Both the position numbers and the translations under genes were made by a program. The notes under the pieces were generated by a model, which did not search any database, was not told the origin of the DNA, and saw only the letters and a list, made by a program, of their open reading frames with translations. From Candidatus Didemnitutus sp. (GTDB lineage: Bacteria; Verrucomicrobiota; Verrucomicrobiia; Opitutales; Opitutaceae), in contig JAUXXD010000009.1 of assembly GCA_030681265.1 (NCBI GenBank), positions 1 through 35,854 on the forward strand: a DNA stretch of 35,854 nucleotides, in the 5' to 3' direction. Positions 2,970-32,214 of the stretch are shown here, piece after piece. Every line of letters starts with the position of its first letter. Position 1 is the stretch's first letter.

Positions 2970-2978
2970 GCGTCACCG
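2956..2978. terminator. Hairpin across two convergent stop codons
   Basis: CGGTGA (2956-2961) pairs with TCACCG (2973-2978), and CGC (2963-2965) pairs with GCG (2970-2972), around a TTGA loop with one bulged C. The hairpin covers the stop codons of both convergent genes, whose coding regions are three bases apart. There is no T-run on either side, so bidirectional termination is only a suggestion. Confidence 0.35.
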
Positions 2979-4313
2979 GAGCCGCGAGCGCACGAGTTCC
3001 GTCAGCGCCGCCACATTGAACGGCTTTTCGATTACCAACGCTTCGTCAGGCGGAACACTGTGAGGTGCATTCTGAATTGTTGTGAGAAACGGACGGATAC
3101 CCGGCTGCAGTTGCCGGGCGCGACGCACCCATTCGCGACCATCGGGACCGGAGCGCGATTCCAGTTCAGCGACGAAGCCCTCGAAGAATTCGCCTTGCAG
3201 TAACTCGACCGTGCGCGCCGCGGAAGAACTTTTCTCCACTCGAAAATCGCGGCCGAGCACCATCGCCAAGGTATCGGCTACCGCAGGATTTTCGTCATGC
3301 ACCAAAACGGCCGGCCGCAGCATGTGGTCGAAACTGCCGTGGCGACGCAAGGCCGCGTGCAACAATTCGGAAGGCGTCTTGCCGTCACGCCCCAACTCCG
3401 CATAGCCCAAACGCACCTCCGGCAAATCGGCAAAATAGTGCCGCAGATTGCGCAGGCGGGCGCGCAAGTTCAGCCCGCCCGCCGCCAGCACCACGCCCAC
3501 GCGATGCGCATCGTAGGGTCCGACGAGCTCATGTTCTTGCAAAGCCGTGCGCAAAGCCGGCAAGCGACGCAGCGCACTGTTGCGTGCATCCGCCACTTCG
3601 ATCAGCGCCACGCCACAGCCACGCGCTTCGGCCCGTGCGCGATAGACCTCACGTTGCAGGCCATCCATCAGCTTGGCCTGTTCGCCGGTTAAATCATGCA
3701 ACACGATGACCCACGCGCCGCCGGGTAAATCGGTGATGCGGCGCGCTTCGCCGTAAACGAGCTTCCCGTCGGCGCGCAGATGAAAACTGTCGCCGCCCGC
3801 TTCGAGGTCGGCAAACGGCACCTTCGCCTCGCCCAACCATCGCAGGGCGGATTCGTTGGCGACGATCGGACGGTGATCCAAGCCATACGCCGCGATCCCA
3901 ACCGGTGCTTGGTTGAGCAACAGGCGGAGCAATTCGCGACCGCGGACGGAATCCTGCGCGCGTTGCGCCTGCGTAAGCACCGCACTGAGAAAATCCGCCA
4001 ACCCGGCCAGCAAATGCAAATCCTCCGCGCCGAAGAGCCGGCGGCGACCATCGACGGGGATTTGCAACGTGCCCAACTCGACACCGTCGTTGGTCAACGG
4101 TAGCGCGAGCGCGCCTTGCTGGAACTGATCGGCGGTTTCCACCACGTTGCGATGGAGCGCAATTTTCGCGGTCTCAAACGCGGTGGTGCGTTCTACTGCG
4201 GACTGCAATCCCGCGACGAAGCGATCGAAGTTGTCGAATTGCGCGAAGGCGCGGGCAAACGCACGGAATGCCAGGGGTCCGCTGAGGGAAACAGTATCGG
4301 GGGCGCTGAGCAT
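2973..4313 (-). CDS. GAF-like/PAS/degenerate GGDEF/pseudo-receiver regulatory protein
   Basis: A 446-residue cytoplasmic protein, probably the output or modulator partner of the kinase encoded just upstream. By eye it has a GAF-like region (about 15-120), a PAS-like region (about 125-210, with APVGIAAYGLDHRPIVANESALRW), a GGDEF-fold region (about 215-325) in which the GGDEF motif is replaced by GPYDAH (265-270), and a C-terminal receiver-like domain (about 333-446). The receiver keeps acidic D340/E341, T411/T412 and K430. It has no Asp at the phosphoacceptor position; the nearest acidic residues are E383 and E385 in AELES. The ATG at 4313 shares its A with the TAA of the upstream kinase, which implies translational coupling. 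A 77-residue upstream extension of the frame lies inside the kinase gene and is rejected. There is no DNA-binding domain, so output is probably by protein contact. Confidence 0.8.
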   Translation of the reverse strand: MLSAPDTVSLSGPLAFRAFARAFAQFDNFDRFVAGLQSAVERTTAFETAKIALHRNVVETADQFQQGALALPLTNDGVELGTLQIPVDGRRRLFGAEDLHLLAGLADFLSAVLTQAQRAQDSVRGRELLRLLLNQAPVGIAAYGLDHRPIVANESALRWLGEAKVPFADLEAGGDSFHLRADGKLVYGEARRITDLPGGAWVIVLHDLTGEQAKLMDGLQREVYRARAEARGCGVALIEVADARNSALRRLPALRTALQEHELVGPYDAHRVGVVLAAGGLNLRARLRNLRHYFADLPEVRLGYAELGRDGKTPSELLHAALRRHGSFDHMLRPAVLVHDENPAVADTLAMVLGRDFRVEKSSSAARTVELLQGEFFEGFVAELESRSGPDGREWVRRARQLQPGIRPFLTTIQNAPHSVPPDEALVIEKPFNVAALTELVRSRLR

Positions 4314-6412
4314 TAGGGTTGAACGGGAAGATAGACGCGAAATGTGGTGCCTTGGCCGAGTTGGCTCGTCACTTGAATCTCGCCATGATGGTGCTGCACG
4401 ATGCGCTTCACGATGGCGAGGCCCAAGCCCATGCCGTGTTTTCCGCGGCGTTGACCGGTGGCCTTCGTCGTCGTGAACGGTTCGAAAATGTGCGGCAATA
4501 ATTCCGGATCTACACCGGGTCCATTGTCGGTGACGGCCGCGCACAACTGCGGGCGCGGCACATCCTTCGTGCGAAGCGAAACTTCGAGCGCGAGTTCGCT
4601 GCCCGGCCGTTGATCCATCGCCTGAATCGCATTTTGGGCGAGGTTGAGAAAAACCTGCAGGAGCTGGCTGCTGTTCCCGATTAGGTGAGGGACCTTGGTC
4701 GGCTTGAAAGTCAGCGTCACGCCGCGTCGCTCAGCTTCCGGTCGGATAATCTCCACCACTGTCTGCAGCACTTCCGGCAATTTCACGATGGTCATCGCGA
4801 CCTTATTGCTCTCGGCGAACGCCGCGACGTTTTCCACAATGCTGGCGATTCGCGTGACATCGCGTTGGACCACGGCACCAAATTCCTTGAGCGCTTCCGG
4901 TTCGGGTGTCTGCTCGCGCAAGAGTGCCGCGAAAGTCTGGATCGAGGTGAGTGGATTGCGCAACTCGTGCGCGAGTCCGGCCGCGAGCGTGCCGAGTGCG
5001 ATCAACTTGTCGGTCTGGCTCGCCCGGCGTTCGAGTTGGCGGGCACGCAGCGTGACGGCAATCTGCAAGCAAATCGACTCCAACAAGGTCAACTCCGCCT
5101 CGGTGTAACGCTCATTCTCCGCCCGATGGCCGAGCAACAAGACGCCGGAGAGGAAATCATCACTCGCGATGGGAAAGATGCCATCGAAAGGTATTTTTTC
5201 GCGAAACTCCTCCAGTTGTTCCACGCTTTCCACTGCGAACTCCATCTCCGAGCCGTCAAATAGCACGGGCGATTTGCTATTCTGAAAGACACGCGTCAGC
5301 GCCGAATTAATCGGCAGCTGCGGCGGGCAATGTGACCAGCCCTGCATCGCGCGCAATTGGTAGTCGCGGTCAAATTCCGTGCGCACATAGATCGCCGTCG
5401 CTTGCAAATTGAAGGCGCGGACAATTTCCGGCGCGAGGTGCTCGAAGATTTCCTTCTCGCTGCCAATTGAACCGATGCGCGCCGCCAGTTCCTTGAGTTG
5501 CTTTTGCTGATTGTGGCGGCGCCTTGAATAGGTCTGCGCCAAAATCAGATCGGCAAGTTTGTGTAACTTGGGCACGCCCCAAAAAAAGACCCAACAGACA
5601 ATCAAGCTGCCGAAAAATTGGGTGAATAAATTCGCGTTGCTAAACTGGACATTGAGCAACGAACCCAGCGTCGTCAAACTGAGCAAGTAGCCGACAGACA
5701 GCGTGACACTCAGGCCCAGATACACCGCCGCATGCGCGAAATCATGGGCGACCAAGGGTAATTGATAGCGCGACACCGCGTGCGCCATGATCAGCAGATA
5801 GACAAAGATCAGCAGATTGCCGAACGGGGGCAGCGGCACGTCATACCAAAGCGGAAAATTGGTCGCACCGCCACCGAAGCCGACGATGGTCGCGATTAAA
5901 ATATTCCGCAGTTGGGCGGCGCGCGCCCCAATCGATTGGCGCAGCGTCTCGATCAACAGTCGTCCCGCCTGATAAGTGAGCACCGCAAAAAAGCCGAGGT
6001 AGAACCAGTAAAACGGTCCCGCTTGCGGCCAGAACGGAAATTGCATGGCGGGTTTCACCCCCGTGATCATCAACGGCGTGAAGTTCAGCACCGCCAACAC
6101 CGACGCCATGACATAGCCGCCGCGCACCCAGTGTCGTCGATCCTTGCCGCAGAGATCGACAATGAAATGGAAGAAGGTCACCGGCACGAAGCTGGCGAAG
6201 ACCATCAGCAAACGCGCAAAAAACAACGCGCGCACCGCTTCATCACTCACCTGCCAAAAAAAGTAGGCCGCCGACCACGCGCCGATTGACACCGCAAACA
6301 AACCGAAGCGCAAATTCAGCCCCTCTTGCCGTCCGCGCACCATCACCGCAAAGGAGAGCAAACTGGCCGCCAAAAAATTCAGCAGCGACGAAATGGCGAG
6401 ATACGTGGTCAC
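4313..6412 (-). CDS. Membrane-bound histidine kinase: multi-TM sensor, GAF, HisKA, HATPase
   Basis: A 699-residue sensor kinase. Residues 1-290 hold about eight hydrophobic segments, resembling the 7TM-type kinase sensor domain (for example PPFGNLLIFVYLLIMAHAVSRYQLP-like text at 195-219). A GAF domain spans about 305-455. The phospho-acceptor H-box is AHELRNPLTS with H482, and the ATPase domain has N-box LAQNAIQAMDQ, G1 box TDNGPGVD, F-box IFEPFTTTK and G2 box HGMGLGLAI. The start is GTG at 6412, and GTGA overlaps the stop of the upstream acyltransferase-methyltransferase gene by four bases. The stop overlaps the next start by one base. The three genes are therefore almost certainly cotranscribed and coupled. 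Layout and length also recall PrsK kinases of PEP-CTERM systems, but the partner here is not a PrsR-type AAA+ regulator. The ligand is unknown. Confidence 0.93.
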   Translation of the reverse strand: MTTYLAISSLLNFLAASLLSFAVMVRGRQEGLNLRFGLFAVSIGAWSAAYFFWQVSDEAVRALFFARLLMVFASFVPVTFFHFIVDLCGKDRRHWVRGGYVMASVLAVLNFTPLMITGVKPAMQFPFWPQAGPFYWFYLGFFAVLTYQAGRLLIETLRQSIGARAAQLRNILIATIVGFGGGATNFPLWYDVPLPPFGNLLIFVYLLIMAHAVSRYQLPLVAHDFAHAAVYLGLSVTLSVGYLLSLTTLGSLLNVQFSNANLFTQFFGSLIVCWVFFWGVPKLHKLADLILAQTYSRRRHNQQKQLKELAARIGSIGSEKEIFEHLAPEIVRAFNLQATAIYVRTEFDRDYQLRAMQGWSHCPPQLPINSALTRVFQNSKSPVLFDGSEMEFAVESVEQLEEFREKIPFDGIFPIASDDFLSGVLLLGHRAENERYTEAELTLLESICLQIAVTLRARQLERRASQTDKLIALGTLAAGLAHELRNPLTSIQTFAALLREQTPEPEALKEFGAVVQRDVTRIASIVENVAAFAESNKVAMTIVKLPEVLQTVVEIIRPEAERRGVTLTFKPTKVPHLIGNSSQLLQVFLNLAQNAIQAMDQRPGSELALEVSLRTKDVPRPQLCAAVTDNGPGVDPELLPHIFEPFTTTKATGQRRGKHGMGLGLAIVKRIVQHHHGEIQVTSQLGQGTTFRVYLPVQP

Positions 6413-8106
6413 TTCTGCGCTTTGATTACCACGGCTTGGTTACCCAATGAATGAAAATTCTGGCTCACCGTAAAGCCGGCCTCCGTGGCCAGCGCGGCCA
6501 ATTCGGTATCGGAGAAAAACGCATAATGGCCGACTTCCTCTTTTTGACGGATCTTGCCCGCCGCGCGCAGTAGATTACGCGCTCCTTCCAATTCCTCCGC
6601 GGAAACCTGCTGCGTCATGAAATCACGGTAGATCATCGACATGTCGCAATGCGGTTTCATGCTCGAGGCCACGATCACCGCCCCGGGACGCGCGACGCGG
6701 TGCAACTCCGCCAACAACGCGTGCGGACGGCGCAGGTAGGAAAGCACCAAGCTGCAACAAACGACATCAAACGTGTTGTTCGCGAAGGGCAGATGCGGTG
6801 ACTCCGGTGTGCCGGTAAGATCGTTGAAATCAAAACGCAAATAACCGATGCCGGGCGGACCACCTCGCGCCAACTCATCTTGGTAACGTCCGAGCGCATC
6901 CAAGTGGTGGCCCATCGCGTCGGTCAGTCCGCGATTGGTCAAATCTAGTCCCACGTAAAGGGCCGGCGGAGTCGGGGCGGTGCGCACGCGGCGCTGGCGC
7001 ATGGCCTCGTGCAACATCCAGCGGCCAAACATACCGTTGCCGCAGCCCGCATCGAGCACCATGGCACCGGGGCGAAACGCGCAGAGTCGCCCCACCAACT
7101 CCATGTATTGGCGGTAGTCCTCCGATTTCTCGAGCACGCTGTATTTTTCGAGATAGCCCGACCAAAACACGCCTTCGCTTTCCGTCGGCATTTCGGAACG
7201 GCGCAACCGTTCGCGCTCTACTTTGTTTTGTTGGAGAATGAGCTTTTTTTCCGGCTGTTTGAACTCCACCTGATTGTCGCTCGGCCATTCTTGCTCAGTA
7301 AGACACGCCCACACCACGCGGCGGAAAACCTCCTCGGCCGCACGCGGATTTTCACGCACCTCGTGCATCGCACCCTCGATCGCCACCATGCGCGCCAAGG
7401 GCTGACCGGCCATCGCCTTTGCCACATCTTGGCTATCAACCCACGCATCGTTCATCGCGTAAAAATAAATCAACGGCACGCGCAATGCGGCGATGTCCAC
7501 CACCGAACCGGCAAGGTTGTGCATGTTGGCGTCCACCGCCGTCCCGAGGAAAATCTCGCCATTGATGTCAAAGCCGAGGATGTCGGTCAGCCCCCAGTGG
7601 CGGCCCGCGAGGTAGGTGCCGAAAATGTCCTCCTGGTAAACTTCGCGCAGCGTGTGCTGCATGTTGACGACGCCGACGACACTGATGAGTCGGCTGATAC
7701 GTGAGTCTGTCGCGGCGGCACGAAATGCACAACGAGCCGATAAGCTGTTCGACACCAGCACCGCGTCGTTCGCGTAGCCCTTGGCCGCCAAAAAGTCGTA
7801 GCAACTCACGATATCATCGACCGCGCCGGGCAAACTGAAATCCTGCATGCGCCCTTCGCTCTCTCCGACATGATTCGTCTGGTCGAAACGCAGGACGTTG
7901 AGTCCATTGGCGGCGAGAAAGTAGGCGAGTTGTAAATTGTTTTTTTTGGTCTCGCCGTATTTGGGGGCGACGACCACCCACGGGCGGCCCGCGAGCACTC
8001 CCGCATGGTCAAGACACGCAGCTACGTTCAGCCCGGTGCGACTGGTGAAACTGACGAAATCTGTTCGAATCTGTCCGGTTTGGACATGCGAAGAATCCGC
8101 TATCAT
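6409..8106 (-). CDS. LuxD-like acyltransferase/thioesterase fused to a class I SAM methyltransferase
   Basis: A 565-residue two-domain enzyme. The N-terminal half (about 15-270) is an alpha/beta hydrolase most like LuxD, the acyl-ACP acyltransferase of luminous bacteria. Shared features are NGLNVLRFDQTNHVGESEG (67-85), the nucleophile elbow SNSLSAR with S121, the segment VGVVN (144-148), D220 in MNDAWVD and H248 in EGAMHEV. These coincide with the LuxD Ser/Asp/His triad as I recall it. The C-terminal half (about 315-565) is a class I methyltransferase with motif I VLDAGCGNG (350-358), acidic VGLDLT (385-390) and FDVVCCSLVLSYL. There is no signal peptide. I chose the ATG at 8106 over an in-frame TTG at 8163; neither has a clear ribosome-binding site. 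The stop overlaps the kinase start. Plausibly it releases an acyl chain from a carrier and methylates it. The substrate is inferred, and a general S33-type hydrolase is the alternative. Confidence 0.85.
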   Translation of the reverse strand: MIADSSHVQTGQIRTDFVSFTSRTGLNVAACLDHAGVLAGRPWVVVAPKYGETKKNNLQLAYFLAANGLNVLRFDQTNHVGESEGRMQDFSLPGAVDDIVSCYDFLAAKGYANDAVLVSNSLSARCAFRAAATDSRISRLISVVGVVNMQHTLREVYQEDIFGTYLAGRHWGLTDILGFDINGEIFLGTAVDANMHNLAGSVVDIAALRVPLIYFYAMNDAWVDSQDVAKAMAGQPLARMVAIEGAMHEVRENPRAAEEVFRRVVWACLTEQEWPSDNQVEFKQPEKKLILQQNKVERERLRRSEMPTESEGVFWSGYLEKYSVLEKSEDYRQYMELVGRLCAFRPGAMVLDAGCGNGMFGRWMLHEAMRQRRVRTAPTPPALYVGLDLTNRGLTDAMGHHLDALGRYQDELARGGPPGIGYLRFDFNDLTGTPESPHLPFANNTFDVVCCSLVLSYLRRPHALLAELHRVARPGAVIVASSMKPHCDMSMIYRDFMTQQVSAEELEGARNLLRAAGKIRQKEEVGHYAFFSDTELAALATEAGFTVSQNFHSLGNQAVVIKAQK

Positions 8107-8187
8107 TGGTAGGTTGACCCGCGAGCCCAGTGAGGAGAATTCGCCACGAAATGCAATGAGCAAGTCCCACTTCTAGTGCCATTTCGG

Positions 8188-8206
8188 GAATTATTCACAA
8201 TAATTC
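8188..8206. promoter_or_regulatory. Perfect 8-bp-arm palindrome in the divergent intergenic region (operator candidate)
   Basis: GAATTATT, CAC, AATAATTC: two perfectly complementary 8-base arms around a 3-base centre. It is strikingly AT-rich within a GC-rich window. It lies near the middle of the 151-bp gap between the divergent acyltransferase-methyltransferase and sensor-kinase genes. Its symmetry and position fit a dimeric regulator's operator controlling both arms, or overlapping -10 elements. I could not assign convincing -35/-10 pairs. Confidence 0.5.
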
Positions 8207-8257
8207 ACGCTTGCTTCGTCAGGTAAGGCGGAATGTTCTCCCACAAGACACACGGAA

Positions 8258-10276
8258 GTGACCCGGCTCCTCCTCATCACCGACGACACCCCCCAGGCGC
8301 TGGCGCTAGCATCAGCGCTCTCGTCGTCTGCCGACTTCCAGATTCACCATCGCGAAAAATTGGCCGAAGCCCGCGGCGCCATTGTCGCCGGAGCGTTCGA
8401 AGCCTGCCTGTTCCTCGCCAGCCGGATTGATGCGGAAATTTGCCACGAAATCAGCACCGCCCGAGCCCTCGCGCCAGCGTTGGCTTTGGTCGCGGTCGCG
8501 CCAGCTGGTGCCACCACTGACGCCCAGCCCCGCCTGCTCACTGCGGGAGCCGACAGCGTGCTGTTTCAACCGCTCGACGTCGACGCCCTCGCGGTGCACC
8601 TCAGCCGCCTCACCGGTCGCGGCTCCCTCGCGGTCAGCGCACCCGAAAAACCATTGACCGCATCTTCGCCGAGTTCACTCAATGCGAAGAACGAAGCGCT
8701 TTCGACGGCGTTGGAAGTCCTGCGCGACTTCTCGCGCGTGCTGGGCTACTCGCTCGATTACCGGCAACTCACCCATCAATTCATTCTCAAATTGCGCGAA
8801 GTAGTCGGCGTATCGCGCATCGCGATCTTCTTGGAACCCGGCGCCGCCGATGCGCTCCCGGCGACCGCGAGATCCGACAGCACCAGCCTGCCCTGCATCG
8901 CCGCCGTCGGCGTGCCGGCCGACCTTGTCGAATGTTTCGCGCTCACGCGCAAGAGCGGCCTCGGTCGCCAGCTGACGTTGCAGCCGCAGATCCTCCGCGC
9001 CCCGACGCAGAGCGCGGCCCCGATGCTCGATGCGAAGATCGCCCGCGAATTCGAAGTCATCGGCGGCCAAGTCGCTATTCCCGTCAACGACCGCGAACGC
9101 ACGCTCGGCGTGGCGGTGCTGGGCGGGCGCATCACCGGCGGCGAATTCTCCGACGAAGAGCTGCTGCTCGTTTATCACCTGCTCGAAGAACTCGGGCTCG
9201 CGATTAAAAACAGTTGGTTGCACCACCAACTCGTCGGCAGTCACCGCCTTTTCGGCACGGTGCTCAATGGACTGACCGTCGGCGCACTCGTCGTCGGCCC
9301 CGCCCAGCGCATCGCCTACGCCAATCGCGCCATTCTCGATTTTCTCGGCGGACCCGACGCGACGACACTCGAGATGACCGATCTCCCGCCCAATGTCGCG
9401 GCACGGCTGCACGAGGTGACGGAAAAAGGCGGCGATGTCGTCCCCTTCTTCCACGAGACGAGCAGCCCGGTGCGGCAGGAATTCCGCGTCACGATCATTC
9501 CGCTCCGTCAGCCGGACGGACGATTGCCGCAAACCGCGCTGTTGCTGCTCGAAGATTTTACGCAGGTTCGCGCCGGACAACGCGCCGAGATCGAGGCGTC
9601 CAATCTCAAACTCATCAGTTTGATCGCCCGCCGTTTCGCACACGAGATTCGCAACTCACTCGTGCCACTCACGACACATGCGCAACTCTTCGAAACCGAA
9701 ATCGGCAACGAAGATTTTCGTGATTCGCTCCGCGCCGCCCTCAATCGCGAAACGCAACGCATCCAGCGTTTCACTGATCAGATGCTGTTGCTCGCGCGCG
9801 CCGATCAACCACCCGCGGAACTCGCGTCGCTCGAGGAAATCCTGCGCGCCAGCTTCGAGAAATCCCGCGCCTACGTCGGCGGCAACGCGACGCTGGACAT
9901 CAAAAGCGACCTGCCGCCCGTGTTGCTCCGTTGCAACCGCGCCAGTCTCACGCATGCGTTTCAGGAAATTTTCCTCAACGGACTGCAAAGCAGTCACGAC
10001 TCGAGTCGCCGCGTCACCGTGGGTCTCCACGCGATGCCAAGCAGCGAGCGCCCGAGCGAACTCGTCATCACGGTGCGCGACGGCGGAGAAGGGTTTGCCG
10101 CCGACTCCGCGCCGCGGGCCACCGAGCCATTCTACACCACCCGCAACACCGGTGTCGGCCTCGGCCTGACAATTGCGCAACGCGTCATCGCGGCGCACGC
10201 TGGACGCCTCGAAATTCATTCTCGTCTCTTGCCCGCGGATGCTGATCTCACCATCCGCCTTCCCCTTCCCCGCTAG
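8258..10276 (+). CDS. Histidine kinase with pseudo-receiver, GAF and PAS domains
   Basis: A 672-residue soluble kinase. Residues 1-120 have a receiver fold (LLLITDD at the N-terminus) but lack both the phosphoacceptor Asp (the beta-3 end reads CLFLASR) and the conserved Lys (LFQP, Q104), so the domain is likely a non-phosphorylated pseudo-receiver. A GAF domain covers about 150-315 and a PAS domain about 328-440 (VLNGLTVGALVVGPAQRIAYANRA). The H-box is FAHEIRNSLVPL with H462. The ATPase domain has VRDGGEGF, TEPFYTTR and TGVGLGLTIA. There is no transmembrane segment, so the signal is cytoplasmic or comes through a partner. The start is GTG at 8258, preceded by CACGGAA. Its stop is separated by one base from the ATG of the FadL-like gene, indicating an operon. 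Confidence 0.92.
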   Translation: MTRLLLITDDTPQALALASALSSSADFQIHHREKLAEARGAIVAGAFEACLFLASRIDAEICHEISTARALAPALALVAVAPAGATTDAQPRLLTAGADSVLFQPLDVDALAVHLSRLTGRGSLAVSAPEKPLTASSPSSLNAKNEALSTALEVLRDFSRVLGYSLDYRQLTHQFILKLREVVGVSRIAIFLEPGAADALPATARSDSTSLPCIAAVGVPADLVECFALTRKSGLGRQLTLQPQILRAPTQSAAPMLDAKIAREFEVIGGQVAIPVNDRERTLGVAVLGGRITGGEFSDEELLLVYHLLEELGLAIKNSWLHHQLVGSHRLFGTVLNGLTVGALVVGPAQRIAYANRAILDFLGGPDATTLEMTDLPPNVAARLHEVTEKGGDVVPFFHETSSPVRQEFRVTIIPLRQPDGRLPQTALLLLEDFTQVRAGQRAEIEASNLKLISLIARRFAHEIRNSLVPLTTHAQLFETEIGNEDFRDSLRAALNRETQRIQRFTDQMLLLARADQPPAELASLEEILRASFEKSRAYVGGNATLDIKSDLPPVLLRCNRASLTHAFQEIFLNGLQSSHDSSRRVTVGLHAMPSSERPSELVITVRDGGEGFAADSAPRATEPFYTTRNTGVGLGLTIAQRVIAAHAGRLEIHSRLLPADADLTIRLPLPR

Positions 10277-10277
10277 C

Positions 10278-11498
10278 ATGATGTCCCCACCCTGCACTCC
10301 TCTCTCTCGTCGTAAAACGGCGGGAGTAGTTCTACTCGCCGTGGCCGTTTCGTGGTCGCTCGCGTTCGGTTCCGGCACACGCGTCGGCTTCAAAGACGCC
10401 TTTGCCACCGCGCGCGGCAACGCCTTCGTCGCCACGGCTGATAATCCCAGCGCGCTCTACTATAATCCCGCCGGCATCACGCAGCTCGACGGCTTGCAGA
10501 TGGCGGGAAACCTTTACCATCTCGCCGTTTCGTCCGACTACGCCGGCACCGGCGGCACCGCGTCGCTCGTCAAGGATCGCCAGAATGTGCCTTCACTCTA
10601 CTTCACATGGAAACCGGCCAACGGCTCCGTCGCCTATGGCTTCGCCGTTTACGCGCCGTTCGGTCTCGCCACGGAGTGGCCCAACACATCGCCGCTGCGC
10701 ACCCACGCGCTGAAAAACGAGCAAACCTACCTCACCTACAATTTCACCGCCGCGTGGCAGGTTGCGCCAAATGTCTCCGTCGGCGGCAGCGTCACTTACA
10801 ACCGCATCGACACCGACCTGCGCCGCGCGCTCGGTATCTTCGGTCCGACCGATCTGTTCCGCTTTGAAGGCAACGGGCACGACTTCGGCTTCAATCTCGG
10901 CCTCTTGTGGAAACCAACCGAACGCCACAGTCTCGGCCTCAGTTACTCACACCGCACGTCCGTCAATCTCACGGGCACTTCGTCCACGATTCCGCTTGTG
11001 CCGAGCGAACCTGCGTCGGCGCGCTTTGAATTTCCCGAAGTGCTGATCGTCGGTTGGTCTTTCCGTCCGACCCCTGCGTGGAATTTCGAAGTGAATCTCG
11101 ATTGGACGAACTGGAATCGCCTCAACACCGTAACTGTGCAAAAAGCTTCCGGCGCGACTCCGCTACCGTTTCACTGGAAGTCCGGTCTGTTCTACGAATT
11201 CGGCGCGACGCACTATTTCACCAACGGTTGGAACATGAGCGCCGGTTATTGCTTCACGGAAAATTCCACGCCCGACGCGACCTACACGCCGGCGGTGCCC
11301 GATAGCGACCGTCACTTTTATTCACTCGGCGTTGGTTATCGCGGCGAGCGCATCACCGCCGATCTCGCATGGCAATATGCCGACGGTGGCACGCGGCGCG
11401 TCGTCGGCAGTCCGGCCTCGCTCATTGGGGCCACCGCCGATGGCAGCTATCGCAATACGATCAACTCGCTCTCGCTTTCTCTCGGTTATAAATTCTAA
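10278..11498 (+). CDS. FadL/OmpP1/TodX-family outer-membrane fatty-acid transport protein
   Basis: A predicted outer-membrane beta-barrel that lets long-chain fatty acids or other hydrophobic molecules cross the outer membrane. The 406-residue precursor starts with basic and hydrophobic signal-peptide text (SRRKTAGVVLLAVAVSWSLAFGSG). The mature N-terminus carries the family hallmark SGTRVGFKDAFATARGNAFVATADNPSALYYNPAGI-type segment with NPAG. Alternating barrel strands follow, and the C-terminus ends in an aromatic outer-membrane signal (SLSLGYKF). The chosen start is ATG 10278, one base after the kinase stop; ATG 10281 is equally possible. The frame extends upstream inside the kinase gene, but that part lacks signal-peptide logic. 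Its position between two histidine kinase genes is unusual and suggests ligand uptake for the sensing system. Substrate specificity is inferred. Confidence 0.92.
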   Translation: MMSPPCTPLSRRKTAGVVLLAVAVSWSLAFGSGTRVGFKDAFATARGNAFVATADNPSALYYNPAGITQLDGLQMAGNLYHLAVSSDYAGTGGTASLVKDRQNVPSLYFTWKPANGSVAYGFAVYAPFGLATEWPNTSPLRTHALKNEQTYLTYNFTAAWQVAPNVSVGGSVTYNRIDTDLRRALGIFGPTDLFRFEGNGHDFGFNLGLLWKPTERHSLGLSYSHRTSVNLTGTSSTIPLVPSEPASARFEFPEVLIVGWSFRPTPAWNFEVNLDWTNWNRLNTVTVQKASGATPLPFHWKSGLFYEFGATHYFTNGWNMSAGYCFTENSTPDATYTPAVPDSDRHFYSLGVGYRGERITADLAWQYADGGTRRVVGSPASLIGATADGSYRNTINSLSLSLGYKF

Positions 11499-11510
11499 AC
11501 TGCCGCGCCC

Positions 11511-12776
11511 ATGAATGCTGTTGCGCCATCGCCCCTCGCCACCCTGCCGACCTTACTGATCGTCGATGATGAGGAAGGACCACGGCACTCGCTGCGCATG
11601 GTCTTCCGACAGGAGTTCAAGGTGCAGACAGTAGACAACGGCGAAGAGGCGCTCGAATTCGCCCGCGCCAATCACGTGCAGTTGGCGATCCTCGACATCC
11701 GCATGGCGGGCAAATCCGGCATCGACGTGCTCCGCGGTCTCAAAGCCATCGACCCGCACATTGAAGTTATTATGCTCACGGCCTACGAGACGATCGAGAC
11801 TGCGCGCCAAGCATTGCGTCTCGGCGCCTGCGATTACCTGAGCAAGCCATTCGACCTCTCGACGATTCGCGAAGCCGTCACCCGCGCCCTCCATCTGCGT
11901 CGCATTTCCGAAACGGTTTCCTCCACCTCCGAGCGCCTCCAAGCACTCACGGTGCAACTCAACGACGCCTCCGTAAAAGAGGAAATGTCGCGCACCACGA
12001 CCGAAATTTACGCCGGCGCGCTGCACGACATCAACAACCCGCTCACGGTCATTTCCGGTTACGTCGAGCTGTTGCGTCACAAATTGGAAAGCGTCGGCTC
12101 GCTCTACGGCGCAGACCTTCACGGCATCCGCGAAGACGTCAACCTCCTCGCCAAACAGGTCAACACCTGCGCCGCGATCACGCGCCGCTACTTACGTTTC
12201 GTCAACAAACGCAGCGCGCACACCCCGGAAGTTTCCGTCAATCAAGTGATCGACGACGTGCACACCCTGATGCGTAATCACCCGAGCCTGCACGGCGGCA
12301 CGCTCTCCGTGAAACACCTCGACCGCGACGCTGCGGCGCAAATCGGCGGCACCGAGCTCATCCAGATTTTGCTCAATCTCACCGTCAACGCCTTCCAATG
12401 CTGCGACCGTCCGCAATCCGTTTGGATTACCGCCGAGCGCCATGAAGAGCCGTTGCCAATCGAGACCTTTCGCGACACGCCGACCGAGCGCTTCATCCAT
12501 CTGGAATCCTTCGCCAACCACGCGCCGCTGATCGCGCTCTCCGTGCTCGATCAAGGTCCCGGCATCACCCAGGACGTGCTCTCACGCATTTTCGAACCTT
12601 ATTTCACGACCAAAGCGCAAACCGGCACCGGGCTCGGTCTCGCTATTGTCACCCGCCTCGCAAGACATCACTCTGGCCTCGTGCAAGTCGTGACCAAACT
12701 CAACGAAGGCACTCGTTTCACGATCTATTTGCCCGCCAAAGAGCCGGGCGATTCGTTTAGTCCTTTCGACGCCTAA
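11511..12776 (+). CDS. Receiver-histidine kinase hybrid (REC-HisKA-HATPase)
   Basis: A 421-residue soluble protein that starts with a canonical receiver domain (about 14-130: D19/D20, phosphoacceptor D62 in ILDIRM, T90, K112 in LSKPFD). A kinase module follows: H-box ALHDINNPLTVISG (H172), N-box NLTVNAFQCCD, VLDQGPGI, FEPYFTTK and TGTGLGLAI. There is no DNA-binding domain. The receiver-then-kinase order matches proteins that relay phosphate onward, such as PhcR-type regulators. It starts 12 bases after the FadL-like gene and is probably cotranscribed with it and the upstream kinase. Its intact receiver makes it the only protein in this island with a complete phosphoacceptor site, hence a likely phosphorylation target of the neighbouring kinases. 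A cognate DNA-binding output is not visible here. Confidence 0.93.
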   Translation: MNAVAPSPLATLPTLLIVDDEEGPRHSLRMVFRQEFKVQTVDNGEEALEFARANHVQLAILDIRMAGKSGIDVLRGLKAIDPHIEVIMLTAYETIETARQALRLGACDYLSKPFDLSTIREAVTRALHLRRISETVSSTSERLQALTVQLNDASVKEEMSRTTTEIYAGALHDINNPLTVISGYVELLRHKLESVGSLYGADLHGIREDVNLLAKQVNTCAAITRRYLRFVNKRSAHTPEVSVNQVIDDVHTLMRNHPSLHGGTLSVKHLDRDAAAQIGGTELIQILLNLTVNAFQCCDRPQSVWITAERHEEPLPIETFRDTPTERFIHLESFANHAPLIALSVLDQGPGITQDVLSRIFEPYFTTKAQTGTGLGLAIVTRLARHHSGLVQVVTKLNEGTRFTIYLPAKEPGDSFSPFDA

Positions 12777-12859
12777 GCGCTTCGTGAATTTAGTCTGAGA
12801 CACGGACTCTGACGCGAACCGGGCTTGCTCGCCGTGAGCGCCCGCGTTTCACTCCCGGC

Positions 12860-14167
12860 GTGACCGAATTTGTTATTCCGCTCATCGCTGCCGCCCTCGC
12901 CGGTGGTCTCGGTTGGTTCATCGCCCGCACCAGCACTGCCGCGCTCGCCGAACGCGCGCGCTTGACCGCCGAGGAGTTGCAAACCACCCGCGTGCGCCTC
13001 GTCGAAGTCGAAGCCGAGCGCAACAAGTTGGACTCCGCACTCGCCGCCGAACGCGCCGCGGGTGCCGAGCGCGTCAACGCGCTGACGCTCGCGCACGAGC
13101 GTCTCACCACGGAATTCAAATCCCTCTCCGCCGACGCGCTGAGCAAAAACACCAACGAGTTCCTCAAACTCGCCGGTGAAACTTTCGGCAAGTTGCAGCA
13201 GCAATCCGCGGGCGATTTGGAAAAGCGCCAACAAGCGATCGATTCGCTCGTCAAGCCGCTCAAGGAATCGCTCGAAAAAGTAGACGCCAAAATCAGCGAG
13301 ATCGAAAAAGCCCGTTCCTCAGCCTACGGCCAACTATCGGAGCAGTTAAAATCCCTCGGCACCGCGCAGGTTTCACTCCAAGCCGAAGCCTCCAAACTCA
13401 CCACCGCGCTGCGTTCCACCACCACCGCAGGCACCTGGGGCGAACTCCAACTCCGCCGCGTCGTCGAGATGTCTGGCATGAGTTCCTACTGCGACTTCGA
13501 TGTGCAGAGCAGCGTCTCCACCGACGGCGGCCGCTTTCGCCCCGACCTCATCGTTCGTCTGCCCGGCGGCCAACAAATCGTGATCGACGCCAAGGCTCCT
13601 AACGAAGCCTATCGCGAAGCGGTCAACTCGTCCGACGACGCCGTGCGCACGCAAAAGCTCGCCGAGCACGCCGCGAAAGTCCGCAGCCACATCGACGCCC
13701 TCGGTGCGAAAAATTACTGGGAGCAATTTCAGCCCTCGCCCGAATTCGTCGTCCTCTTTCTGCCGGGTGATCAATTCCTCTCCGGCGCGTTGCAAGGCGA
13801 CGCCACCCTCATCGACCGCGCCATTGCGAAGAAGGTTCTCCTCGCCACGCCCGCCACACTCATTGCGCTGCTCAAAGCCGCGGCCTACGGTTGGCGGCAG
13901 GAAGACGTGTCGAAGAACGCGCAACTCATCGCCGACCTCGGCCGCGTGCTCTACGACCGCATCGCCAACTTCGCCGACAACCTCGACAAAGTCGGCCGCG
14001 GTCTCGAAACCGCCAACAAAGCCTACAATTCCGCCGTCGGTTCGTTCGAACAAACCCTCCTACCCGGCGCGCGTAAATTCGACGAACTCGGCGCGAAAGG
14101 CGCGAAAGACCTCGCTGATCCGTCTCTGGTGGAAAGCACCCCGCGCGACGTCATCAAGCGCACCTGA
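12860..14167 (+). CDS. rmuC: DNA recombination protein RmuC
   Basis: RmuC is a predicted nuclease-fold protein that limits inversions and recombination at repeats. The 435-residue product has an N-terminal membrane anchor (FVIPLIAAALAGGLGWFIA, about 4-22), a long coiled coil (about 25-165) and the RmuC domain with GTWGELQLRRVVEMSGM, RFRPDLIVRLPGG and IVIDAKAP, all characteristic of the family. Length is normal. The start is GTG at 12860 without an obvious Shine-Dalgarno. The 83-bp gap before it separates the gene from the signalling island. It is followed at 14 bases by the TIGR03067-like gene, so the two may be cotranscribed, although no functional link is known. Confidence 0.95.
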   Translation: MTEFVIPLIAAALAGGLGWFIARTSTAALAERARLTAEELQTTRVRLVEVEAERNKLDSALAAERAAGAERVNALTLAHERLTTEFKSLSADALSKNTNEFLKLAGETFGKLQQQSAGDLEKRQQAIDSLVKPLKESLEKVDAKISEIEKARSSAYGQLSEQLKSLGTAQVSLQAEASKLTTALRSTTTAGTWGELQLRRVVEMSGMSSYCDFDVQSSVSTDGGRFRPDLIVRLPGGQQIVIDAKAPNEAYREAVNSSDDAVRTQKLAEHAAKVRSHIDALGAKNYWEQFQPSPEFVVLFLPGDQFLSGALQGDATLIDRAIAKKVLLATPATLIALLKAAAYGWRQEDVSKNAQLIADLGRVLYDRIANFADNLDKVGRGLETANKAYNSAVGSFEQTLLPGARKFDELGAKGAKDLADPSLVESTPRDVIKRT

Positions 14168-15955: not shown

Positions 15956-16933
15956 ATGATTAACGGCCCTGCTTGGTCCCAGAAACTCCGCGCTGAAATT
16001 GGCAAAGCCGTCATCGGCCAAGACGAAATAGTCGAACGCCTCCTCGTCGCCCTGCTCGCCAACGGCCACGTGCTCCTCGAGGGCATGCCCGGTCTCGCGA
16101 AAACGCTCCTCGTCAAATCGCTCGGCACCGCCCTCGGCGTGCAATTCGAGCGCGTCCAGTTCACACCCGACCTGTTGCCGAGCGACGTCGTCGGCACGAT
16201 GATTTTTTCGCCGAAGGACGGCGCATTCGCCACGCACAAAGGCCCGATCTTCGCCAACCTCGTGCTGGCCGACGAAATCAACCGCGCGCCCGCCAAAGTG
16301 CAATCTGCGCTCCTCGAAGCGATGCAGGAACGCCAAGTCACCATCGGCGGCAACTCACTGCAGTTACCCAAGCCTTTTTTCGTCATGGCGACGCAGAATC
16401 CGGTCGAACAGGAAGGCACCTACCCGCTCCCCGAAGCGCAGACCGATCGTTTCCTCTTCAAACTCATCGTGGATTATCCGTCGGCTGAAGAAGAAGCGCG
16501 CATGATGGATATGTGGGGCCAAGTCACGAAAGCCCCGTCGCTCCAAGCGGTCTCCAGTGGTGCCGAGTTGCTTGAACTCCGCGCCCAAGTCGACGCCATC
16601 CACGTGTCCGCTGGCGTGCAGGCATACATCCTCGCGCTCGTGCGCGGCACACGCGAACTCGCCGCGCAAGCTGAAGGCACGACGACCACTTCGAAACGTC
16701 TGCTCAACTTTGGTGCTTCGCCACGCGCGTCGCTCGCGCTCTTCCAAGCGGGTCGCGCCCTCGCGTGGTTGCGTGGTGCTGATTATCTTTCTCCGTCGCT
16801 CGTGCAGGAAATCTTCCTCGATGCGCTGCGTCACCGCGTCGGTTTGACCTACGAAGCCGAAGCGGAAGAGCTTACGTCCGACCGCATTCTCACTCGCGTG
16901 CTCGAACGCACTCCGGTGCCCGCGCACGCTTGA
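15956..16933 (+). CDS. MoxR-family AAA+ ATPase
   Basis: A 325-residue chaperone-like AAA+ ATPase that typically works with VWA proteins encoded beside it. Walker A is GMPGLAKT (about 43-50) and Walker B is LVLADEINRAP. FFVMATQNPVEQEGTYPLPEAQTDRFLFK covers the sensor-1 and arginine-finger region, and a C-terminal lid ends at 325. It is the first gene of a plus-strand run MoxR, DUF58, BatA, BatB-C, BatD-E. The 151-bp gap to the next gene carries an inverted repeat. Its role is presumably maturation or remodelling of a target at the cell envelope through the VWA proteins; the target is unknown. Confidence 0.95.
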   Translation: MINGPAWSQKLRAEIGKAVIGQDEIVERLLVALLANGHVLLEGMPGLAKTLLVKSLGTALGVQFERVQFTPDLLPSDVVGTMIFSPKDGAFATHKGPIFANLVLADEINRAPAKVQSALLEAMQERQVTIGGNSLQLPKPFFVMATQNPVEQEGTYPLPEAQTDRFLFKLIVDYPSAEEEARMMDMWGQVTKAPSLQAVSSGAELLELRAQVDAIHVSAGVQAYILALVRGTRELAAQAEGTTTTSKRLLNFGASPRASLALFQAGRALAWLRGADYLSPSLVQEIFLDALRHRVGLTYEAEAEELTSDRILTRVLERTPVPAHA

Positions 16934-16949
16934 GAAACACCAAGCTCGC

Positions 16950-17065
16950 AAGCATCAAGCTCCAAGGGACTCCCATGAACTCAACTCACAACCGCACGGA
17001 ACACCCTTCCCGGCTGGTTGGACATTGGTGTTTCATTGGAGTTTGGCGTTTGGAGCTTGGAGCTT
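16950..17065. repeat. Inverted repeat in the moxR-DUF58 gap
   Basis: A 16-base left arm at 16950-16965 (AAGCATCAAGCTCCAA) and a right arm at 17050-17065 (TTGGAGCTTGGAGCTT) are complementary at 14 of 16 positions and enclose 84 bases. The right arm continues a run of related TTGGAG/TTTGG words from about 17034. It lies inside an operon just upstream of the DUF58 start. It may be a dispersed intergenic repeat or an mRNA hairpin that sets relative expression. Confidence 0.55.
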
Positions 17066-17084
17066 CGTAAGCGCAGCTCACATC

Positions 17085-18017
17085 ATGGCCAATCCACTCA
17101 CCGAACACACCTCGATCGTCACCTCCCAACTCGCGCTGCTGCGCCAGTTGGAATGGAAGGTGCGTCATGCGGTCGAGAACGTGCTCAGCGGCGAGTATCG
17201 CTCGGCGTTTCGCGGGCGCGGCATGGAGTTCGACCAGGTCGTCAAATACACCTACGGCGACGACATTCGCGATATCGACTGGAACGTCACCGCACGCCTC
17301 GGCGAACCTTACCGCAAAAAATTCATCGAGGAACGCGAGGTCACGTTGCTGCTCGTGCTCGATGACAGCGTCAGTCTGCAATTTGGCTCCGGTGCGCAAT
17401 CCAAGCGCGAAGCACTGCTCGAGTTGGCCGGACTCGTCATGTTGCTCGGCGCGGTGAATCGCGACCGCGTGGGGTTTCTCCACGCTTCGCGCGACGGCTA
17501 CACGCTGAAAGAACCCGTGCGGGGCCGCGGACAGATTCTGCATCTCGCCGCGCAATTGCTCGGCCGCCCCGCGCCCGCGCTCGACGGGCGCACCGAGGAA
17601 GCCGTGACGCCGTCGGCGGCGATTCCGTGGCGCATCCTTGCGCACGCCGCACCGCGTCACAGTATATTGATTTGGCTTGCGGATTTTCCGCCGCAGTTGC
17701 CGCCCGAAGGTTGGAGCGTGCTCTCGCGTCGTTATCAAACGATGGGCTTCCGCGTCGATGATCCGTGGGACCGCGAGTTGCCGACGGGCCGCGTGCTTAC
17801 GGCCTACGATCCGGTGTCCGGTCGGCTGGTTAATCTCGATGGCTCTTCGTCTGCGCAACGCGCCGCGCACGCCGCATGGGTTGCGACACGCGAGGAGTCG
17901 TTTCGCCAGTTGTTTCCCGCGCCGCTCAGCCGCCTCGTCGTGCCGACCGACGAAGATCGTCTCAAGGCCCTCGTCCGCTTTTTCCATGCCCGCATGGCTG
18001 CGGGTTCACGTCGCTGA
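17085..18017 (+). CDS. DUF58-domain protein of the Bat operon
   Basis: A 310-residue protein of the DUF58 family, which has a VWA-like fold and is almost always encoded next to MoxR. The hallmark segment GRGMEFDQVVKYTYGDD-IRDIDWN (about 45-68) is present, followed by LLLVLDDSVSLQFG (about 90-103), the degenerate MIDAS-like strand. There is no signal peptide or transmembrane helix. ATG 17085 is chosen because the frame's earlier ATG at 17025 lies within the inverted repeat and adds 20 unrelated residues. Its TGA overlaps the BatA ATG by one base (TGATG), indicating coupled translation. Molecular function is unknown; genetic context links it to envelope-stress or aerotolerance functions. Confidence 0.93.
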   Translation: MANPLTEHTSIVTSQLALLRQLEWKVRHAVENVLSGEYRSAFRGRGMEFDQVVKYTYGDDIRDIDWNVTARLGEPYRKKFIEEREVTLLLVLDDSVSLQFGSGAQSKREALLELAGLVMLLGAVNRDRVGFLHASRDGYTLKEPVRGRGQILHLAAQLLGRPAPALDGRTEEAVTPSAAIPWRILAHAAPRHSILIWLADFPPQLPPEGWSVLSRRYQTMGFRVDDPWDRELPTGRVLTAYDPVSGRLVNLDGSSSAQRAAHAAWVATREESFRQLFPAPLSRLVVPTDEDRLKALVRFFHARMAAGSRR

Positions 18018-19078
18018 TGCCACTCGCCAATTACACGCTCTCCGAACCTTGGTGGCTGCTCGCGCTCGCCGCACTGCCGCTGTTGATTTGGGCGCGCGGA
18101 CATCGCGGAGCGCCGGTGCTCGTCGTGCCGTTTGCGGCGGCGTGGCACAAGCCGACGTTCATTCCCACGTCGCGCTGGCCGGCCTCGTTTGCGTTGGTCG
18201 GACTGACGTTGCTCATCATCGCGTTGGCGCGACCGCAGATCGTCGAAGATAAACGCGAAGTGAAACAGCAGGGCTACGACCTCATGCTGGCGATCGACCT
18301 TTCCGGTTCGATGCTCGCGGAGGATTACGAACGCAACGGCGAGCCGATCAACCGGCTGCAAGCGATCAAGCCCGTCATCCAGGCCTTCATCACTCAGCGC
18401 AAGAGCGACCGCATCGGCATGGTGGTTTTCGCCGGACGCGCCTACACGCTCGCGCCACTCACCTTTGATCACGACTGGCTCGGCCGGCAGGTCGAGCGAC
18501 TCAAACTCGGCTTGATCGAAGACGGCACCGCCATCGGCGACGGACTCGGCGTGGCGCTCACCCGACTCGAACAAGCCGGACGCGAGGAAGGCAGCCAGCG
18601 CAAGGGCGCGTTCGTGGTGCTGTTGACCGACGGCGCGAACAACCGTGGCTTGCTCACGCCAGAGCAAGCCACCGATATTGCAAAATCGCGCGGCGTGCCG
18701 GTCTATACGATCGGCGCCGGACGCGACGGACTCGTGCGCATGCCGGTGTTTGACGACAATGGCCGCAAGATCGGCTATCGCCGCGCCATCTCTGATCTCG
18801 ACGAAGGACAACTGCGCGCGATGGCGAACGCGACGGGCGGCAGGTTTTTCCGCGCGTTCGATAGCGACACGATTGAGAAAGCGTTCGCGGCCATCGACCA
18901 GGCGCAGAAAATCGAATTTCAGTCGAAGTCCTACCTCATCACCACGGAGCTTTTCCCGTGGTTTGCCGGGCCGGGCGCGGTGCTGTTGTTTCTCGGCGCG
19001 CTGATCGCGTTGCCACCGCAATTTCCGCGCCGCCGCACCGCGCGCGCAACCGCCGCCGCGGAAGGAGGCCGGGCATGA
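18017..19078 (+). CDS. batA: BatA-type membrane VWA protein
   Basis: A 353-residue inner-membrane protein. It has two N-terminal transmembrane segments (about 12-26 and 56-72), a VWA domain with MIDAS motif DLSGS (94-98) and LLTDGANN, and a C-terminal transmembrane segment near 313-333. It matches BatA of the aerotolerance operon first described in Bacteroides. The start overlaps the DUF58 stop (TGATG) and its own stop overlaps the BatB-C start (ATGA). Function is known only by association: protection against oxygen or envelope stress, and possibly assembly of membrane complexes together with MoxR. Confidence 0.93.
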   Translation: MPLANYTLSEPWWLLALAALPLLIWARGHRGAPVLVVPFAAAWHKPTFIPTSRWPASFALVGLTLLIIALARPQIVEDKREVKQQGYDLMLAIDLSGSMLAEDYERNGEPINRLQAIKPVIQAFITQRKSDRIGMVVFAGRAYTLAPLTFDHDWLGRQVERLKLGLIEDGTAIGDGLGVALTRLEQAGREEGSQRKGAFVVLLTDGANNRGLLTPEQATDIAKSRGVPVYTIGAGRDGLVRMPVFDDNGRKIGYRRAISDLDEGQLRAMANATGGRFFRAFDSDTIEKAFAAIDQAQKIEFQSKSYLITTELFPWFAGPGAVLLFLGALIALPPQFPRRRTARATAAAEGGRA

Positions 19079-20910
19079 CACCCGACTTCCATTCGCCCCA
19101 TCTGCTTTGGTTGCTCGTGCCACTCGTCTTGTTATTCTCGGGGGAGCTCGCGCGGCGCGTCGGTGCGGCCGCGACTTTCTGGCCGAAGATTCCCCGCGCG
19201 TGGGCCGGGGCCTTCGACGTCGCGCTCGGCACCAAACACACGACGGCCGAAACCCGCGCCCGCATCTGGCTCTGGTTCGGCCTCGCCTTTTGCATCATCT
19301 CACTCGCGCGCCCGCAATGGGGCGTGATTGAGGAACAAGTTTTTGACCAATCGCGCGAAGTGCTGATCGCCGTCGATTTGTCGCGCTCAATGTTGGCGCA
19401 AGACGTGAAGCCATCGCGGCTCGACCGCTCGAAGTTGCTCATCACGTCGTTGCTCGACGGCCTGAAGGGCGAGCGCGTCGGACTCGTGTTGTTCGCCGGC
19501 ACGGCGTTTTTGCAAAGTCCGCTCAGTTCGGATTACGAAATCTTGCGCGAATTTTTACCTGCGCTCGGGCCGGATTACTTGCCGGAAGGCGGCTCGAATT
19601 ACCAAGCGATGCTGGAAACTTCCGTCCAGGCTTTCGGCACTTCTACGGCGGATCGCTACCTGATTATTCTCAGCGACGGCGAGAGCACCGAGGACGGTTG
19701 GAAAGAACTCGCCGCCACGCTGAAGACGAAGGGCATTCGCGTGATCGGCCTCGGTATTGGCACGAGTCAGGGGTCGTTCATTCCCGACAGTTCTGGCGGA
19801 CTCGTCAAAGACGAGCGCGGTGCCGTGGTGTTGTCTCGCCTCGACAGCTCGACGTTGCAAAGCCTCGCGCAAACCACCGGCGGTGCCTACACCGACGCCA
19901 GCAGTTGGATTGATCTCGCGGGCTTGCTTAAGAAGACCGTCGAAGCCGGACAGAAGGGACAATTCACCGAGAAGAATACGGCGCGTCTGATCGAGCGCTA
20001 CCAGTGGTTTCTCGTGCCGGGGCTGGTGTTGTTGATGATCAGTTTCTGGGCGGAATTTCCGGTGCGTCCCCGCGAACGCGCCTTGCCACTTCACCGCGCG
20101 ACCTCGCGCCCGCCGCGTCCAGCCCAACGTGCCGCCGCGCTGGCGATCGGCCTTTTGTTGCTCACCGGATTCGGTGCGGCGCAGCCGCTGCCCGCGCAAA
20201 CGGCCGCGCCATCCGTTTCGAGTGAAGACACCCTGGCTAAACCGCTCACGACAACTGTCGCGCGGCTGGCCGACAAAGACGCGTTGACCGCAAAAGACTA
20301 CGCCGACCTCGCGCAGACGACGCTCACCTACGGCGGACGCCTCCAGTCTTCACAAAAACCCGTCACCGAAGGGGTCGTGCGCGACGCGCTCGCGGGCGTC
20401 GATCTCGGCGCGAAGTTAGATGCAAAAGCCGCCGACTGGCCGCGCCTGCGCACGGAGTTGGAAGCGTTGCTCGAAAAACCGGAACAGCCGCCGGAAGATA
20501 AAAAGGATGACCAACAAAAACAGGACCAGCCGCAACAGCAGGACAAAAACCAGCAACAGCAAGATCAGCAGAAACAGGATCAGCAACAAGACGACCAACA
20601 GAAGCAAGATGAGCAGCAGAAGTCCGATTCCCCGCAAAAGCAGGAACAGGACGCATTCGGCGATATGAAGGAGCCTGACGAAAGACAAAACACCGAAGAA
20701 AAATCCGAAGACACTCCCCCACCGCCAAAACCGCCAACGCAAAAAGTCGGCGGCCAGCCGGAGAGGAAGGAAGAAGCCCCACTCGATCCCGATCTCGCGA
20801 TGCCGCTCCAGAAACTCGACCAAGTCCGCAACCAAGATTCTCCCGCCAAACTCCAGCAACTCCTGCAAGGCCAGCCGCAAAAGCAGCCGAAGCGAGGCAA
20901 GGATTGGTAA
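19075..20910 (+). CDS. batB: BatB VWA protein fused to a BatC-like domain
   Basis: A 611-residue membrane protein. Residues 1-330 are BatB: two N-terminal transmembrane segments (about 9-22 and 64-77), a VWA domain with MIDAS DLSRS (101-105) and SDGES (200-204), then a transmembrane segment at about 310-325. After a basic linker, a further hydrophobic segment (353-369) resembles an internal signal or anchor. It is followed by a domain of about 100 residues, a Gln/Asp/Lys-rich low-complexity stretch (about 475-530), and a terminus ending in KDW, as in BatC proteins. BatC is normally a separate gene. The start ATG has GGAAGGAGG upstream and overlaps the BatA stop. The low-complexity region is a codon-repeat tract, not a nucleotide repeat array. 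Confidence 0.88.
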   Translation: MTPDFHSPHLLWLLVPLVLLFSGELARRVGAAATFWPKIPRAWAGAFDVALGTKHTTAETRARIWLWFGLAFCIISLARPQWGVIEEQVFDQSREVLIAVDLSRSMLAQDVKPSRLDRSKLLITSLLDGLKGERVGLVLFAGTAFLQSPLSSDYEILREFLPALGPDYLPEGGSNYQAMLETSVQAFGTSTADRYLIILSDGESTEDGWKELAATLKTKGIRVIGLGIGTSQGSFIPDSSGGLVKDERGAVVLSRLDSSTLQSLAQTTGGAYTDASSWIDLAGLLKKTVEAGQKGQFTEKNTARLIERYQWFLVPGLVLLMISFWAEFPVRPRERALPLHRATSRPPRPAQRAAALAIGLLLLTGFGAAQPLPAQTAAPSVSSEDTLAKPLTTTVARLADKDALTAKDYADLAQTTLTYGGRLQSSQKPVTEGVVRDALAGVDLGAKLDAKAADWPRLRTELEALLEKPEQPPEDKKDDQQKQDQPQQQDKNQQQQDQQKQDQQQDDQQKQDEQQKSDSPQKQEQDAFGDMKEPDERQNTEEKSEDTPPPPKPPTQKVGGQPERKEEAPLDPDLAMPLQKLDQVRNQDSPAKLQQLLQGQPQKQPKRGKDW

Positions 20911-20915
20911 TTCCC

Positions 20916-28666: not shown

Positions 28667-28693
28667 GTCGCGGCAACTCGCTCCTGAATTTTC

Positions 28694-28730
28694 ATGGCCC
28701 GCTCCTTTCGGGGATCGGGCCATTTGTTTG
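28694..28730 (+). terminator. Rho-independent terminator after the small secreted protein
   Basis: ATGGCCCG (28694-28701) pairs with CGGGCCAT (28716-28723) around a 14-base loop, followed by TTGTTTG. The 8-bp stem plus T-rich tail lies 27 bases after the stop of the small gene and 47 bases before the PEP-CTERM gene start, so it separates the two transcription units. Confidence 0.7.
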
Positions 28731-28776
28731 CAACAAAAGCTTGTTCCGTTGCGGCGGTTGCCGTAGTTTTACCGCC

Positions 28777-32192: not shown

Positions 32193-32214
32193 CGCGCCGT
32201 CACTTCACGGCGCG
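32193..32214. terminator. 8-bp hairpin between convergent genes
   Basis: CGCGCCGT, CACTTC, ACGGCGCG is a perfect 8-bp GC-rich stem spanning the gap after the PEP-CTERM gene and the stop codon of the convergent membrane-protein gene (stop at 32200-32202). There is no T-run, so bidirectional termination is probable but not canonical. Confidence 0.45.

Follow-up and report, generated by a model that had tools for sequence, protein, structure and literature searches.

A FadL-family outer-membrane channel within a conserved kinase and acyl-enzyme cluster of Opitutales: a candidate lipid-signal system

The question raised by this locus is why a gene for an outer-membrane channel of the fatty-acid type should lie between genes for two kinases, and whether the channel has a part in what those kinases sense. 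The DNA analysed, referred to here as the window, is a stretch of 35,854 nucleotides from a contig of Candidatus Didemnitutus sp.

The FadL gene and the six-gene cluster

The channel gene (A; positions 10278 to 11498, forward strand, ATG at 10278) encodes a protein of 406 amino acids. Residues 51-406 matched the Pfam family Toluene_X/FadL (PF03349; E 2.5e-53), and the score of 181.5 bits against a curated cut-off of 29.7, over most of the protein, assigns it to this family. Solved chains of FadL, TodX and CymD were also identified as sequence matches, and a search of the 220 contigs of its own assembly revealed no second copy at E 0.001. What sets it apart from FadL/TodX channels is that it is embedded in a kinase cluster.

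The sequence-only reading of this DNA had placed the FadL start one base past the stop of a histidine kinase and its stop 12 bases ahead of the start of a receiver-kinase, and both distances were confirmed. The upstream ORF (B; 8258-10276, forward strand) encodes a histidine kinase with HisKA, HATPase_c and PAS_4 matches, the N-terminus of which was found to be receiver-like by profile comparison, with a GAF domain found in 19 of 23 relatives. The downstream ORF (F; 11511-12776, forward strand) encodes a receiver (Response_reg, 2.9e-27) with HisKA and HATPase_c, and no DNA-binding domain was found in it. The order kinase-FadL-kinase had thus been seen correctly, but half of the six-gene cluster, a divergent arm consisting of C, D and E, had been overlooked.

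The first gene of this arm (C; 6409-8106, reverse strand) starts within about 150 bases of B on the opposite strand, the start at 8106 being our choice within a longer frame that begins at 8163. Pfam, PDB 1THT and a structural model identify its product as a fusion of a LuxD-like acyl hydrolase and a SAM methyltransferase, with matches to Acyl_transf_2 (1.1e-26), Methyltransf_23 (4.2e-14) and also Methyltransf_11 and Methyltransf_12. The LuxD half matched 1THT by sequence (E 8.4e-24), and 1THT was the top Foldseek match of the model (pLDDT 84; TM-score 0.82 on the target). In 20 of 20 sequences there was no variation at the aligned positions of Ser, Asp and His, which we take to be the catalytic triad of LuxD, or in the SAM motif DxGCG-G, which places the second half among the SAM-dependent methyltransferases. 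In one relative (L089:9944-11645) the copy of C is broken into two frames in that assembly. Because C scored 97.6 bits against the NCBIfam LuxD model, far below the cut-off of 420, it is regarded as a relative of LuxD and not as LuxD itself. Its likeness to LuxD, the myristoyl-ACP thioesterase of lux operons, lies in the fold and the aligned triad positions; unlike LuxD, it is fused to a methyltransferase and lies beside kinases, and no luxAB or luxCE-like gene was found among the window genes scanned. The nearest solved match of the methyltransferase half was LahSB, described in PMC10952241 as a carboxylate methyltransferase, a weak lead towards a putative ester product.

The second gene (D; 4313-6412, reverse strand), the start of which overlaps the stop of C by 4 bases, encodes a 7TM-GAF histidine kinase identified by HisKA_7TM (1.5e-10), GAF_3, HisKA and HATPase_c matches and by hydropathy. 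The ATG of the third (E; 2973-4313, reverse strand) overlaps the stop of D by one base. The window copy of E had no Pfam match at E 0.001; among 24 relatives (E 0.05), GAF_2 was identified in 17, Response_reg in 12 and PAS_8 in nine. Its model (pLDDT 82) led with Foldseek to receivers and, weakly, to PAS-GGDEF proteins, and the architecture is read as GAF, PAS, a third domain that the model weakly suggests to be GGDEF-like, and a receiver. The phospho-site of this receiver is Glu in 20 of 25 sequences, the window copy among them, and Asp in the other five. Tested as a set, B, D and F possess the features of two-component proteins, namely HisKA with its His box, HATPase_c and a receiver. As a recognised DNA-binding domain is absent from all six cluster genes, the output regulator would be encoded elsewhere.

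The stretch between the two arms (8107-8257) is probably the promoter region serving both, and divergent gaps are also seen in relatives. A single weak promoter-like site was located on the forward strand at 8176-8204, although shuffled sequences can score as well. Alignment of the stretch across relatives gave short common words and no convincing site, partly because, with a start of C at 8163, it could be coding sequence. Scanning of 7800-13200 for terminators gave four terminator-like sites, all on the reverse strand and below the counts in shuffled sequence, and the sigma-70 promoter and terminator scan overall gave no usable sites; no Rfam families or tRNAs were found in the window. Elsewhere the window carries a Bat-type operon (15956-23471, forward strand) of a MoxR ATPase, two vWA proteins and a BatD/TPR-like protein in succession, a gene for a protein of 1208 aa that carries PATR repeats and a PEP-CTERM motif (28561-32187, forward strand), and a sigma-70-type factor (regions 2 and 4) flanked by two YfbK-like vWA proteins (32200-35836, reverse strand).

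Conservation of gene order and the accessory nature of FadL

A contig scan by short peptide patterns, which misses relatives lacking those peptides, yielded 33 loci with C, all from Verrucomicrobiota and with finer names of the Opitutia, Opitutales, Opitutaceae or Puniceicoccaceae type. One of these loci (L080) belongs to a cultured relative, Verrucomicrobia bacterium IMCC26134 (CP011265.1). B was seen in 26 of the 33. Upstream sequence without B was present in L074 (1.7 kb) and in L076, L078 and L089 (about 10 kb each), while in L060, L088 and L090 the contig ends at or within the start of C. With L077 ending inside B, 25 loci allowed the FadL slot to be judged. FadL was present in 20 of these, including L064, which is counted by inference because another contig of its assembly carries B-FadL-F, and absent from five. 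Of the 20 loci with FadL, 15 have it flanked by B and F, and the others have it beside B only, F having moved (L083, L084, L086) or being off the contig (L069, L087). Conservation of the kinase-FadL-kinase order, proposed as a check when the locus was first read, was therefore found in Opitutales.

Spacing at these junctions is close. Both genes are present in 19 other loci, where 17 of the gaps between B and FadL fell within -28 to +22 nt and one measured 153 nt, a value for which the choice of start is uncertain, all starts having been picked by script. At L070:6657-9833 (reverse strand), B and FadL form one open frame of 1058 aa, which may be a fusion, a missing stop or a sequence error. 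Gaps between FadL and F ranged from -35 to 100 nt in 14 loci, and this close spacing suggests that B, FadL and F are transcribed as one operon. As a control, 26 FadL loci outside the cluster were read up to 1.5 kb on either side with the kinases of the window as queries; two had a kinase-like match, both weak (64 and 71 bits), and the adjacency of kinase and FadL thus exceeds chance. The use of C as a marker of all such loci was rejected, since B-FadL-F was also found without C nearby (L040, L043, L049).

FadL is nevertheless dispensable to the arrangement. B directly adjoins F without it in L063, L071, L081 and L085, neither FadL nor F was seen in L079, and it is also missing from the B-F units of L103, L104 and L108. 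A quick tree built from 38 B rows (FadL present in 25, absent in eight) requires at least five gains or losses; shuffled FadL labels gave a mean of 7.3 changes, with 21 (or 10) of 500 shuffles as low as observed. FadL presence is only loosely clustered on this kinase tree, the details of which are unsure owing to the long branches of L113, L114, L082 and L083. Relocation of the same FadL in the genomes that lack it at the locus was considered and rejected, as copies elsewhere are at most 26-27% identical and the L071 assembly contains no FadL-family match. From its absences among the judgeable loci, the changes on the tree and the one assembly without any, FadL is concluded to be a common accessory and not a required part of the cluster.

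Median identities to the window, over domain limits set by the analyst, were highest for the receiver of F (75%), which is better conserved than any other domain examined in the cluster. The GAF domain of B (62%) is the best conserved sensory domain and exceeds the kinase part of the same protein (50%), as a fixed ligand would predict. Values for the remainder were 52% for the kinase and 33% for the 7TM part of D, 48% for each half of C and 50% for the FadL barrel.

Distribution and exchange of the acyl enzyme

Within the order, C was identified in nine of 177 genomes, its own included. Across the phylum it was found at E 1e-25, with three candidates scored per genome, in six of 387 genomes, again including its own, and all six belong to Opitutales. 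Eight of the 33 loci lie on the very contigs that represent the eight other C genomes of the order, so the two sets are not additive. FadL was found in 37 of the 177 genomes at E 1e-10 and in 14 at E 1e-60. A near FadL (E <= 1e-60) occurs in all nine genomes with C and in five of the 168 without it (Fisher p 5e-12, a value that ignores kinship and uses a threshold chosen after the list was seen).

These five genomes without C (G050, G024, G033, G090, G008) differ in what accompanies the channel. The order in G050 (L040) is SurE, ABC, ICMT-like, ketoacyl synthase, 7TM kinase, B, FadL, F and RmuC, at the same genomic locus as the window cluster, and in G024 (L046) it is FadL, ICMT-like, ketoacyl synthase and 7TM kinase. 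G033 carries a near-group FadL followed by a reducing type I polyketide synthase of 2090 aa (KS-AT-DH-ER-KR-ACP; L052:9468-17539). No comparable acyl enzyme was found beside FadL among the neighbours scanned in G090 and G008, nor among those scanned beside the near FadLs outside the cluster in L047, L053 and L055. Ketoacyl synthases were further identified with B, FadL and F in G119 (L043) and G042 (L049), where C-D-E lie on a separate contig, with B and F in G106 (L117), and with a 7TM kinase in G096 (L122). Order-wide, ketoacyl synthase matches were found in 156 of 177 genomes at E 1e-90, mostly at 38-45% identity; these were set aside because most look like housekeeping FabF copies, and only ketoacyl synthases beside cluster genes were used.

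Twelve hand-picked Opitutaceae genomes without C were read at the same chromosomal place. Six of these carry a more distant set of receiver-kinase, ketoacyl synthase and kinase (L165-L169, L172), in one ABC adjoins RmuC (L175), and in five neither a cluster nor RmuC near ABC was present in the stretch read. A set similar to this distant type was also seen in G013 (L115). The set at L165:5988-14767, from the genus of the window, encodes an F 81% identical to that of the window together with different enzymes, and comprises a FAD-binding oxidase, a ketoacyl synthase, kinases, an aminoglycoside-adenylyltransferase-like protein and the receiver-kinase; no FadL was seen there.

We tentatively propose that this Opitutales locus, which in Opitutaceae lies between SurE/ABC and RmuC/MoxR, may hold exchangeable lipid-signal cassettes. 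Each would consist of the LuxD-methyltransferase fusion, the ICMT-like and ketoacyl-synthase pair or the distant ketoacyl-synthase set, with its own kinases, a common receiver-kinase type and often a dedicated FadL that would carry the signal across the outer membrane.

A proposed self-made lipid signal and its rivals

The explanation we favour, and to which we would give an even chance, is that a fatty-acyl signal is both produced and detected by the cluster, and that FadL helps its passage across the outer membrane. The LuxD-like half of C would take an acyl chain off an acyl thioester, and the methyltransferase half would methylate that chain or a derivative of it. The product would reach the outside and come back, with FadL as its path through the outer membrane, uptake being the most likely direction. 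The 7TM kinase D and the GAF kinase B would sense it, and phosphate would pass to the receiver-kinase F and perhaps to E. The sequence-only reading had suggested that the channel supplies or exports the ligand of the kinases. The conserved neighbourhood and close spacing agree with this, and the acyl-hydrolase/methyltransferase fusion encoded in the divergent arm makes it plausible that the cluster itself supplies a lipid ligand. The five loci without FadL speak against a strict form of this reading.

The conserved order, the retention of the motifs of C, the exchange of acyl enzymes and the co-occurrence of C with FadL count in favour of a self-made signal. A precedent for FadL passing a signal is the Salmonella fadL mutant, whose response to a DSF is given in PMC7504960 as 39% lower. 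Counting against it are the loci without FadL, those with C-D-E and no B, and the near FadLs with no acyl enzyme beside them; furthermore, the families to which the ketoacyl synthases and methyltransferases belong are broad. It is unlikely, in our estimation, that FadL takes up fatty acids, esters or hydrocarbons from the environment for the kinases to sense and C to process, with no signal being made. TodX and FadL relatives, to whose structures A was matched, do import such compounds, and the LuxD-like fold is common to esterases; yet ketoacyl synthases, the enzymes swapped in, build chains, and the window genes scanned included none for beta-oxidation.

The repeated absence of FadL (eight of 33 labelled rows of the kinase tree), and the same kinases standing adjacent without it, would also suit a passenger that shares the transcript and has no part in signalling. 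Against this, FadL, where it lies between B and F, is always at the same junction with tight spacing, and is kept in Opitutaceae, in Puniceicoccaceae and in the ketoacyl-synthase variants, and we judge a passenger to be unlikely. A membrane kinase that neighbours both acyl enzymes and an outer-membrane protein could also reflect envelope lipid homeostasis, in which C would remodel membrane or acyl pools, the 7TM kinase would sense the state of the membrane and FadL would clear or exchange outer-leaflet lipids. Such a role fits less well, as C is patchy in both order and phylum and is lacking in a genome of the same genus, which is unusual for a housekeeping function, and it is considered very improbable.

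DSF/Rpf signalling combines a fatty-acid signal with two-component sensing. No RpfF-type synthase was found among the cluster genes scanned, in which the cluster differs from that signalling (reviewed in PMC4504480). Closer in architecture, by which alone it is likened here, is the Phc quorum-sensing system of Ralstonia (phcB, phcS, phcR, phcQ), the signal of which is a methyl 3-hydroxy-fatty-acid and the genes of which, according to PMC8578825, encode a methyltransferase, a sensor kinase, a receiver-kinase without a DNA-binding domain and a further receiver protein. The same list of parts is present in one cluster here. Unlike Phc, this cluster has a LuxD-like half fused to the methyltransferase, additional kinases, FadL and a layout of two divergent arms. 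Within it no gene for a PhcA-like regulator was seen, and the methyltransferase half of C gave five weak matches among plasmids, none bearing a PhcB label. In a search of a largely open-access literature collection, no description was found of a FadL inside such a cluster, of a LuxD-methyltransferase fusion with kinases or of Phc-type signalling in this group of bacteria, and no paper among the 15 of 20 matches listed, ranked so that a complete match would lead, dealt with FadL together with PhcB, PhcS, PhcR and a methyltransferase. Taken as a self-made signal, the FadL-containing cluster suggests an undescribed lipid-based signalling system with Phc-like parts plus a dedicated channel.

To our knowledge, signals of the fatty-acid type have to pass through the outer membrane, and the means of doing so are seldom built into the system itself. 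With FadL encoded beside a putative synthase and sensors, the outer-membrane step would become directly testable. If the proposed exchange of cassettes is real, the locus would represent a family of lipid chemotypes much as exchangeable pheromone types are known elsewhere, and it would offer candidates for cell-cell signalling in the Verrucomicrobiota, little-studied bacteria of water and soil.
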